Notes under the pieces: model-generated
The model's database searches: none
What the model was told of the DNA's origin: nothing
Seen by the model: only the letters and a program-made list of their open reading frames with translations
Program-made: the position numbers and the translations under genes
Origin: Lacrimispora saccharolytica
GTDB lineage: Bacteria > Bacillota > Clostridia > Lachnospirales > Lachnospiraceae
Reading direction: 5' to 3'
DNA: 64,000 nucleotides
Assembly (NCBI GenBank): GCA_016899975.1
Contig: JACJJN010000008.1
Location: 1 to 64,000, forward strand
Part shown: positions 11,566 to 60,727 of the stretch, piece after piece
How the letters are laid out: every line of letters begins with the position of its first letter
How positions within the stretch are numbered: the first letter of the stretch is position 1

Positions 11566-11636
11566 GTAATAGTTCAGCTGACTGAACTGTTACGGCATCC
11601 GCCCATGAAAAATCGTTTCGCGATGGGGCGGATGCC
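11566..11636 (+). repeat. Truncated copy of the 134-bp hairpin element
   Basis: A 28-bp palindrome (GTAATAGTTCAGCT / GACTGAACTGTTAC, 11566-11593) is followed by a hairpin GCATCCGCCCAT ... ATGGGGCGGATGC (11596-11635). The order, and the CCATTGAAAATCG ... CGATGGG core, match hairpins 1 and 2 of the element at 60105. The outer stem sequence is different but still self-complementary. Hairpin 3 and the right end are missing. It lies between relA and the MBL gene. Confidence 0.65.
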
Positions 11637-28097: not shown

Positions 28098-28907
28098 ATG
28101 GCTGGACATTTTTTGAAAGGACGAAAAAATATTTATGTTCCGATTCGGGAGATTGGAAGCGGCGGAACCGCGCAGGTTTCTCTGGCGGTGGAACTTCCCT
28201 GGGGGAAATACCGGGCGGTGAAGATCCGGGAAAAAAAGAGTGCTTCCGGGCTGGGGACGCTGGAAGCGGAGGCGAGGCTTTTGGAACAACTGACGCTTTC
28301 AGCAAAAGAGTATCCTGCGTTATGCAACATTCCCTGCTATTATGAGTATTTCCAGGACGCGGGAAAAGAATGTCTGGTGATGGAATATCTGCAGGGTGAA
28401 ACGGCAGGTGAATTGCTGAGAAAAGGAAAGAGATTCCATGCTGAGGAAATTCTCCGGATGGCTGTGGAATTATGCCGCATTCTGGAAGCGCTGCACAGCC
28501 AGACGCCGCCGGTGCTGTATCTGGATCTGAATCCGGATAACGTTTTCCTGAAACCGGATGGGATCGTCGTGCTGACGGATCTCGGCGCCGCCGCAGCCTG
28601 GTATTGGAAAGAGGAAATGCCGGAGCAGGTTATGTACGGAACCCGTGGGTTTGCGGCGCCGGAACAATATCGGGGAGAAGCGGGATCAACAGCGGATATT
28701 TACAGTCTTGGCGTCCTGATCCGGCAGATGTGGGAACGGAGAACAGACAGGGAAAAACAGATGGAGAAATGGATGGATGAATGTTTGATCCGGTGTACGC
28801 GGGAGATGCCTGCGGACAGGTATCAGACGATACGGGAAGTGAGATTGACTTTGGAGGAGATGTTACAGTTCAGCCTTGCTGAACCGTTACATGCAAAATC
28901 CATTTAA
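28098..28907 (+). CDS. Ser/Thr protein kinase with repeat-derived C-terminus
   Basis: This 269-residue protein is a stand-alone kinase domain without membrane anchor or PASTA repeats. Gly-rich loop GSGGTAQV near residues 20-27, catalytic Lys in AVKIRE near 41, a YLDLNPDN catalytic loop near 140-147 (HRD replaced by YLD, catalytic Asp kept), DLG instead of DFG near 161, and FAAPEQ near 192. All needed residues seem present, so it should be active. The last 14 residues (from LQFSLAEP) and the stop codon are encoded by a 134-bp mobile element at 28862. Target unknown. No start-site alternative looks better. Confidence 0.88.
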   Translation: MAGHFLKGRKNIYVPIREIGSGGTAQVSLAVELPWGKYRAVKIREKKSASGLGTLEAEARLLEQLTLSAKEYPALCNIPCYYEYFQDAGKECLVMEYLQGETAGELLRKGKRFHAEEILRMAVELCRILEALHSQTPPVLYLDLNPDNVFLKPDGIVVLTDLGAAAAWYWKEEMPEQVMYGTRGFAAPEQYRGEAGSTADIYSLGVLIRQMWERRTDREKQMEKWMDECLIRCTREMPADRYQTIREVRLTLEEMLQFSLAEPLHAKSI

Positions 28908-28995
28908 AATCGCCTTCAGCGATGGGATTTTGCACTCCTGAATCACGTTCTTACGGTCTGCGCAGCATGCGCGCAGACCGGGGTTGAACTGTTAC
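28862..28995 (+). mobile_element. 134-bp MITE-like element with 8-bp target duplication (copy A)
   Basis: The element begins GTTACAGTTCAGCC and ends in the inverted GGTTGAACTGTTAC. It is flanked by a perfect octamer GAGGAGAT (28854-28861 and 28996-29003). It contains three hairpins: 28862-28890, 28892-28934 (TGCAAAATCC/GGATTTTGCA) and 28955-28979 (GGTCTGCGC/GCGCAGACC). It is about 92% identical to copy B at 60105. It encodes no protein of its own but ends the kinase frame. GTAA-type ends and 8-bp duplication resemble IS66-family elements, which could move it in trans. Confidence 0.88.
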
Positions 28996-29143
28996 GAGGA
29001 GATATAGGCTGCTGTTTCCTCAGATTGAAAATCCTGCCTGCCTGTGATAAAATGTCTATACGCTCGAAAGAACACAGGAGTATTTACGCTCTGGGTTTTC
29101 CGTGGGCAGAGAAAGATCTTATCATGAACCGGGAGAAAAAAGA

Positions 29144-60074: not shown

Positions 60075-60104
60075 GGCGTATCGCCACTAACAGGATGAAA
60101 ACAC

Positions 60105-60238
60105 GTAACAGTTCAGCCTTGCTGAACCGTTACATGCAAAATCCATTGAAAATCGCCGTCGGCGATGGGATTTTGCACTCCTGAATCACGTTCTTACGGT
60201 CTGCGCAGTATGTGCGCAGACCTGGGCGGAACTATTAC
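60105..60238 (+). mobile_element. 134-bp MITE-like element with 8-bp target duplication (copy B)
   Basis: It begins GTAACAGTTCAGCC and ends GGCGGAACTATTAC, which match as inverted repeats at 12 of 14 positions. Perfect octamers GAAAACAC flank it (60097-60104 and 60239-60246). Hairpins: 60105-60133, 60135-60177 and 60198-60222. It has the same length and orientation as copy A, with about 11 differences. It lies between the AI-2E promoter and the consensus promoter at 60255. Confidence 0.9.
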
Positions 60239-60254
60239 GAAAACACATCCGTCA

Positions 60255-60283
60255 TTGACAAGATGAAAACACAGAAGTATAAT
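60255..60283 (+). promoter_or_regulatory. Consensus promoter of the uptake operon leader
   Basis: TTGACA (60255-60260), 17 bp, TATAAT (60278-60283), an exact sigma consensus. It is 8 bp after the target duplication of copy B. Transcription from about 60290 gives a leader of about 440 nt. Confidence 0.88.
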
Positions 60284-60289
60284 GAATAA

Positions 60290-60540
60290 GGTTCATTCAA
60301 AGGGCGGTAGTGTGCATTGCGGGGCAATTGCCGTACCAGAGGATGAGCAGAAGGATAATAGAATAAAAAACAGATGCGATGAGGAATGTAAAAGCGGTAC
60401 AGTAACTCTTAATCATAAGTCCGGTGAAAGTCCGGCACAGATGCCGTGAGTGGTGGCACAAGTCGGTGAGATGGTCGTATTAATCATGCAGGAAATTCCC
60501 AGGTGGCAGTCTGTTTTTTACAATTTTGCAGATACCTGTT
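60290..60540 (+). ncRNA. Candidate cobalamin-type riboswitch leader
   Basis: The region is non-coding and structured. TCCGGTGAAAGTCCGGCAC (60420-60438) followed by GATGCCGTGAGTGG resembles the cobalamin-riboswitch core (GGTGAAAxTCC then CCGC-ACTG), and CAAGTCGGTGAGATGG (60459-60474) resembles the B12 box. The matches are partial. Context is good: a BtuF/FepB plus FecCD uptake system follows. A further stem, CAGGT...ACCTG, closes at 60538. Other ligands cannot be excluded. Confidence 0.5.
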
Positions 60541-60556
60541 CCGGAAGGAATGGGTT

Positions 60557-60595
60557 TTTTTCTTTCATAGGAAGTACTTTCCTATGAAAGAAAAA
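60557..60595 (+). promoter_or_regulatory. Perfect 17-bp AT-rich hairpin in the leader
   Basis: TTTTTCTTTCATAGGAA and TTCCTATGAAAGAAAAA are exact inverted repeats around GTACT. It sits between the riboswitch-like region and the terminator and may be the anti-terminator or an RNase landing site. Confidence 0.65.
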
Positions 60596-60660
60596 GGCTC
60601 CGCGAGGATCACACTGCGGCGGAGTGGAAGAGGTCGCTTATGCGATCCGCCGAAGGCGGA

Positions 60661-60686
60661 GAATCCTGAAAGCAGGATTCTTTCTT
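60661..60686 (+). terminator. Leader terminator before the repeat-protein gene
   Basis: GAATCCTG-AAAG-CAGGATTC followed by TTTCTT. Its place, 42 bases before the first start codon, is that of a riboswitch-controlled terminator. Confidence 0.8.
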
Positions 60687-60727
60687 AAATTTTGATAACA
60701 CAGCAGATGCGTCAGATGGAGGAAATC

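Follow-up and report, generated by a model that had tools for sequence, protein, structure and literature searches.

A non-coding, 134-bp mobile element of the Lachnospiraceae with a predicted three-hairpin fold

Short mobile DNA elements without a gene of their own have been described in several bacterial groups. Bacterial MITEs such as Correia/NEMIS, ERIC, RUP and YPAL are about 100-200 bp long and contain stable stem-loops but no transposase gene; most have terminal inverted repeats, and several are flanked by target duplications (PMC2229807). MITEs are usually explained as shortened copies of insertion sequences. REP and REPIN sequences are short imperfect palindromes in high copy number that persist within one bacterial group, carry a GTAG or CGTC tag and are moved by the Y1 (HUH) transposase TnpA-REP, or RAYT (PMC8266576, PMC3733652). 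They make no target duplication. Insertion sequences of the IS66 family begin with GTAA and make 8-bp duplications. In retrotransposons, recombination between the direct repeats of one inserted element leaves a solo LTR inside an intact target duplication.

We analyzed a 64,000-nucleotide stretch of Lacrimispora saccharolytica DNA (assembly GCA_016899975.1, contig JACJJN010000008.1, positions 1 to 64,000; referred to here as the window). A first-pass annotation, made from the sequence alone, had noted two copies of a 134-bp element with inverted ends, three hairpins and perfect 8-bp duplications at two different targets. This observation holds in every point. Copy 1 (28862-28995, plus strand) lies between two copies of the octamer GAGGAGAT (28854-28861 and 28996-29003), and copy 2 (60105-60238, plus strand) between two copies of GAAAACAC (60097-60104 and 60239-60246). 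The two copies differ at 10 of 134 positions (92.5% identity). At equal base frequencies, a given 8/8 match has a chance of about 1.5e-5. Each copy folds far better than shuffled sequence (z -6.73 for copy 1 as DNA, z -6.55 for copy 2 as RNA).

The internal organization was resolved by a motif scan and by structural comparison. In copy 1, hairpin H1 (28862-28890) consists of the end motif TIR1 (28862-28874) and its inverted inner copy TIR2 (28878-28890). Hairpin H2 (28892-28934) has an outer stem, TGCAAAATCC/GGATTTTGCA, with a 5' bulge, and an inner stem with one mismatch in this copy. Hairpin H3 (28955-28979) is formed by GGTCTGCGC and GCGCAGACC. The right end, TIR3 (28983-28995, minus strand), has the same orientation as TIR2 and lies 105 bp downstream of it. 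The corresponding parts of copy 2 are H1 at 60105-60133, H2 at 60135-60177, H3 at 60198-60222 and TIR3 at 60226-60238. The end motif GTAACNGTTCAG is thus present three times per element, which the first-pass annotation had missed.

Copy 1 sits at the very end of a reading frame (28098-28907) that, by our reading and without a family search, resembles a protein-kinase-like gene. The frame runs 14 codons and a stop into the element, whereas the joined flanks would read GAG GAG ATA TAG and stop there. The insertion replaced the last codon and stop (EEI*) by an element-encoded tail (EEM LQFSLAEPLHAKSI*). Downstream of copy 2, a stretch at 60405-60440 resembles the core of a cobalamin riboswitch, but a search of 60250-60720 gave no Rfam match at E<=0.1 apart from a miRNA-like chance hit.

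The earlier reading had been made to depend on further copies with duplications, and a search of the whole genome (3.25 Mb, 201 contigs) supplied them. It gave 40 matches at E<=0.001. Among 27 class-A full or partial copies (a solo hairpin, locus L085, was left out), 21 keep 7-8 of 8 duplicated bases at different octamers, 12 of them all 8. Copies that are 90-97% identical and have intact duplications suggest recent activity in this genome. An older class B, mostly 132-133 bp, has the same architecture but different stem letters and also carries duplications: 6 of 17 stretches examined have 7-8/8 at a well-matching right end. The window contains the left part (H1 and H2) of a class-B element at 11566-11636 (plus strand), with no recognizable right part and no duplication found. 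GTAACNGTTCAG occurs 175 times in the genome (87 forward, 88 reverse), against 1 for the reversed control.

Besides full elements, and also not noted in the first pass, there are many 28-29-bp solo hairpins with 8-bp duplications of their own. In an 833-kb sample of the genome, window included, 52 of 81 hairpins were classed as solo. Together, elements and solo remnants amount to about one recognizable hairpin per 10 kb of this sample, which may be high, since contigs with known copies were preferred. The flanks of the solos agree at exactly 8 positions (62-79% identity per position, 19-44% at the positions around them). Of the 52, 18 match at 7 or 8 positions, compared with 0.19% of mismatched flank pairs, and 11 are perfect; two of the 52 (L084:14306 and L095:15701) are left ends of truncated full copies and were not removed from the count. 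A probable solo of 28 bp lies in the window at 164-191, with flanks GCAAAACC and GAAAAACT matching at 6 of 8 positions. Two solos (L062:11647-11674 and L022:82-110) are flanked by inverted instead of direct 8-mers (for example cgcaagaa / ttcttgcg), making longer palindromes, as if they sat in a terminator or were inserted into one.

In order to find out how solos arise, we made use of species in which TIR2 and TIR3 differ at one base. Solos should often carry the TIR3 base if they come from TIR2/TIR3 recombination, and the TIR2 base if H1 moves on its own. In Limivivens (genome G146), 5 of 8 hairpins with the TIR3 base were solos, against 5 of 39 with the TIR2 base. In the L. saccharolytica genome (G000), the figures were 4 of 8 against 1 of 24, and in a MAG titled Oribacterium (G147) 1 of 1 against 2 of 14, which is not significant alone (p 0.2). 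The stratified exact p was 2.7e-5. Hairpins with a G-type right arm (L305, L313, one in L337), the degenerate L337:177, and solos with flanks under 6/8 were left out, as were, in G000, the inverted-flank hairpin L022:82 and the truncated copy L084:14306; with the solos under 6/8 included, p is 2.8e-5. In G146, all 10 listed T-type sites and 43 C-type sites out of 114 sites were examined, of which 8 and 39, respectively, were counted. In G147, 16 of 25 sites were examined and one (L283, 5/8) was left out. The result favors a 105-bp deletion between TIR2 and TIR3, although better mobility of solos with two matching ends is an alternative reading. Conversely, the solos may themselves be transposition units (two 12-bp ends with a 4-5-bp spacer) and the 134-bp elements composites of them. 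The perfect duplications of 11 solos, the matching ends of many, and the abundance of hairpins, solo and full together, in several genomes are in line with this idea. However, the enrichment of the TIR3 base argues against it, and a stiff 28-bp duplex would be a hard substrate for a paired-end complex (an inference). We consider it unlikely.

A comparison with empty sites in relatives had also been proposed beforehand as a test of transposition, and it identified orthologous sites lacking the insert. A solo in genome G001 (L109) has an empty counterpart in Ca. Fusicatenibacter merdavium (L173), and a full copy in Blautia parvula (L178) has one in L165. Window copy 2 has one in L181, where the region is shorter and a GAAACAC-like stretch remains. 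The alignments of the last two are rough, several other candidate pairs were not clear enough to use, and copy 1 had no ortholog in the sequence examined. Together with the many independent octamers, these sites strongly support transposition with an 8-bp duplication.

The element belongs to a family that extends well beyond this genome. The exact hairpin pattern, a strict test, was present in 4 of 145 relatives sampled, all four among the seven of the genus. In the GTDB collection it was found in at least 109 stretches, from records titled Fusicatenibacter, Limivivens, Parablautia, Eisenbergiella, Blautia, Scybalocola, Oribacterium, Hungatella and others. The IMG/VR viral collection had no exact hairpin, plasmids gave no match, and phage records gave five unverified faecal scaffolds. 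In the collected sequence, a scan that allowed 118-145 bp yielded 107 distinct full copies with 7-8/8 duplications, 90 of them 133-136 bp long. They stem from 13 genomes, five unassigned loci and two of the phage records. Of these, L161 looks false, and the two phage scaffolds (MT837311 and MT836459, L255 and L256), which carry 133-bp copies with 8/8 duplications, may be bacterial contamination or prophage. A covariance model built from 25 copies matched 45 of 250 genomes of the family Lachnospiraceae (44 of 249 genera), many with a single match. In a class-wide sample, it matched 5 of 341, all in the same family. Of 27 distant loci matched by the model, one per genome, 16 showed units of 130-149 bp with GTWAC-like ends and 7-8/8 duplications in a quick scan; the other 11 (L408, L409, L412, L413, L414, L417, L420, L421, L423, L429, L430) did not show a clean pair of ends with a 7-8/8 duplication.

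Several variants depart from the standard unit. The Oribacterium-titled MAG contains 161- and 164-bp relatives (L183:7420-7580 and L184:16-179) with 16-bp ends and a very long internal hairpin, flanked by 7/8 and 8/8 duplications. A 252-bp copy (L212:3762-4013) has extra sequence inside H2 (7/8 duplication), and a 274-bp stretch (L389:386-659) is a tandem double copy (8/8), indicating that the unit can carry cargo. A separate 144-145-bp subfamily with different H2/H3 letters is present in the genus (L103:2817-2961, L116:3906-4049), once apparently nested in a 190-bp composite with an 8/8 duplication (L172:1596-1785). In the Oribacterium-titled and RUG11237 MAGs (L117, L151), the asymmetry of H2 is reversed, with the bulge on the 3' side, yet the total length stays 134-135 bp.

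Although the letters differ widely between relatives, the three-hairpin fold is retained. On 25 copies and 36 pairs, covering H1, both stems of H2, and H3, 94.6% of cells pair. Two-sided changes were found in 15 pairs and 79 cells, compared with 8.6+-1.2 and 24+-3.7 in shuffles. The covariation score was 0.256 against 0.100, and partners slid by 1-3 columns scored 0.08 or less. One of the five measures, further pair types, was only weakly above shuffles (33 against 29.4, reached in 25 of 500). The outer stem of H2 carries most of the signal (for example CG 9, GC 8, UA 7 at one pair). The alignment was made by MAFFT without structure, but the structure was written from the same sequences and the copies were chosen for standard architecture, so that the slid control leans in its favor. 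The set comprised 22 of 35 dissimilar copies plus three others; the 13 left out were long, short or reversed-H2 forms, one 136-bp Limivivens copy and L161, so the test speaks for the standard architecture. Covariation could in part come from template-switch repair of imperfect palindromes. No known RNA family was matched: Rfam gave no match above the curated threshold in the window, and in three loci only 16 matches far below gathering scores, mostly to eukaryotic miRNA families.

The conserved fold raises the possibility that it is a cofactor or substrate of mobilization, either as an RNA made from the element or as folded lagging-strand DNA. The turnover of stem sequence, the spread of model matches over many genera and the near-constant length speak for this. 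TIR1 can pair either with TIR2 or with TIR3, so H1 and end pairing exclude each other. On the other hand, DDE transposition of duplex DNA needs no hairpin, there were no transcript data, a single-strand function was not tested, and there was no orientation bias relative to genes. In 35 tandem-gene contexts, 17 copies had the same and 18 the opposite orientation, which also argues against a cis-regulatory RNA riding in one orientation. Of 76 full copies with enough flank, 58 lie outside reading frames of 100 codons or more in the joined-flank sequence, a crude gene call. We regard a fold-dependent element as a tentative reading, less likely than not by a wide margin. In its boldest form, equally doubtful, it would be a SINE-like or attC-like class of bacterial transposon, a non-coding, folded element, spread through one bacterial family, whose single-stranded three-hairpin form is itself needed for mobilization by an as yet unidentified enzyme that makes 8-bp duplications. 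H1 would compete with end pairing and act as a built-in switch that also turns copies into inert 28-bp solo palindromes.

The first-pass annotation had suggested an IS66-type transposase acting in trans, and had named an IS66 element with matching ends as something to look for. Its interpretation is supported only in part, namely for transposition but not for IS66. The L. saccharolytica genome, 99.93% complete, had no match to PF03050. PF03050 was matched in 11 of 15 genomes examined, but not in the carriers G003 (99% complete), G001 (only 75% complete) and G148. Two intact IS66 copies in a relative (L226, L236) begin with GTAA and have 8/8 duplications; duplications were not preserved in other IS66 end pairs. 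IS66 ends found in relatives read GTAAGCGTCAAATAAG, GTAAGCGATGAATAAC, GTAAGTAGGTAATCAT and the like, sharing only GTAA with GTAACNGTTCAG. The Limivivens IS66 gene region has no such ends, and end-motif hits near some of 30 IS66 loci (for example L233, L246, L249) do not bound the IS66 gene. An IS66-like enzyme too divergent for PF03050, or one since lost or missing from the draft assembly, is not excluded, as GTAA and the 8-bp duplication do fit, but we consider IS66 mobilization unlikely.

IS256 and Y1 enzymes did not track the element either. IS256 (PF00872) was matched in 11 of 20 carriers, but not in G001, G003, G005, G009, G147, G183, G201, G284 and G292. A Y1 transposase would suit short, mostly intergenic palindromes in high copy number that persist long in a lineage, and G000 has one Y1_Tnp gene. 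However, Y1_Tnp was no commoner in carriers (24 of 45) than in non-carriers (120 of 205; p 0.62, taking two draws of 250 genomes to be the same), and the hairpin has no GTAG tag. The exact 8-bp duplications refute a REP/REPIN origin in its simple form, and we consider it very unlikely. Other transposase families (ISL3, IS1595, IS4, IS3 and others) were not tested.

In order to find an autonomous partner, we scanned 2.47 Mb of the collected sequence for inverted end pairs with duplications. Among 1918 inverted end pairs there was no larger element with these ends, a duplication and a transposase, and such scans gave only small variants (252, 274, 161-190 bp) and pairs that look like chance, for example L210 around a long reading frame that is not transposase-like by our reading. 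Nothing was found in 40 short contigs of the L. saccharolytica genome (163 kb) or, with these ends, among the 30 IS66 loci and 16 longer IS66 regions. Whole genomes were not scanned, and the outcome leaves undecided whether the family derives from, or shares its ends with, an autonomous element. An all-against-all comparison of proteins near copies in different genera gave no obvious candidate, and the top clusters were not identified by a family search. The element does not look like a shortened copy of any insertion sequence seen here.

Taken together, we read the family as non-autonomous, MITE-like DNA transposons of the Lachnospiraceae, with a probability of roughly 0.75. In this view, a transposase acting in trans recognizes GTWAC-N-GTTCA ends and inserts the unit of about 133-136 bp, composed of TIR1-TIR2 (H1), H2, a linker, H3 and the right end TIR3, mostly between genes and in either orientation. 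The ends, the duplication and the orthologous sites without the insert are shown by the analysis, whereas the enzyme and its probable DDE type are inferred, the latter from the fixed 8-bp duplication; the transposase gene was not found. After insertion, the direct repeats TIR2 and TIR3 would recombine or slip, deleting the 105 bp between them and leaving a solo palindrome flanked by the original duplication. This step is supported by the diagnostic base but was not observed as an event. That the fold is kept by selection on a single-stranded form, RNA or DNA, needed for mobilization or for tolerance by the host, is again an inference. The base preference at the target is odd for a symmetric DDE complex: in 92 oriented full copies, C at +3 after the right duplication is found in about 46, while the mirror G at -3 is not enriched. 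The duplications are A-rich in the left half and T-rich in the right half. The family is real and MITE-like in what it does, but it is not a shown member of any insertion-sequence family, because no parent was found, and why its fold is conserved is the main question that it raises.

The elements matter because model matches reach 44 genera of a dominant gut family. They offer a natural test of whether folding of a mobile DNA matters for transposition, a record of insertions (duplication plus solo state) for Lachnospiraceae genome evolution, and sharp criteria (GTWACNGTTCA ends, 8-bp duplication, Lachnospiraceae-wide) in the hunt for an unidentified transposase. Searches of open-licence papers, in which PMC10969869 was consulted along with the MITE and REP papers cited above, gave no description of this family.

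Compared with the described systems, the family shares with bacterial MITEs the short length, the lack of transposase coding capacity, the terminal inverted repeats, the target duplication and the stem-loops. It differs from them in the 8-bp duplications and GTWACNGTTCA ends, the third inner copy of the end motif, the solo palindromes and the fold kept across many genera with sequence turnover, and no parent insertion sequence was found. The conserved fold is the part that ordinary MITE biology does not explain. With REP/REPIN sequences it shares short imperfect palindromes in high copy number and persistence within one bacterial group, but it has target duplications, no GTAG tag and no association with Y1 transposases. 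With IS66 it shares the GTAA start and the duplication length, but the rest of the end differs. The solo hairpins are best read as deletion scars and in this respect resemble solo LTRs, by analogy only: here the repeats are 12-13-bp end motifs inside and at the end of a DNA element, the remnant is a palindrome, and no reverse transcription is implied.
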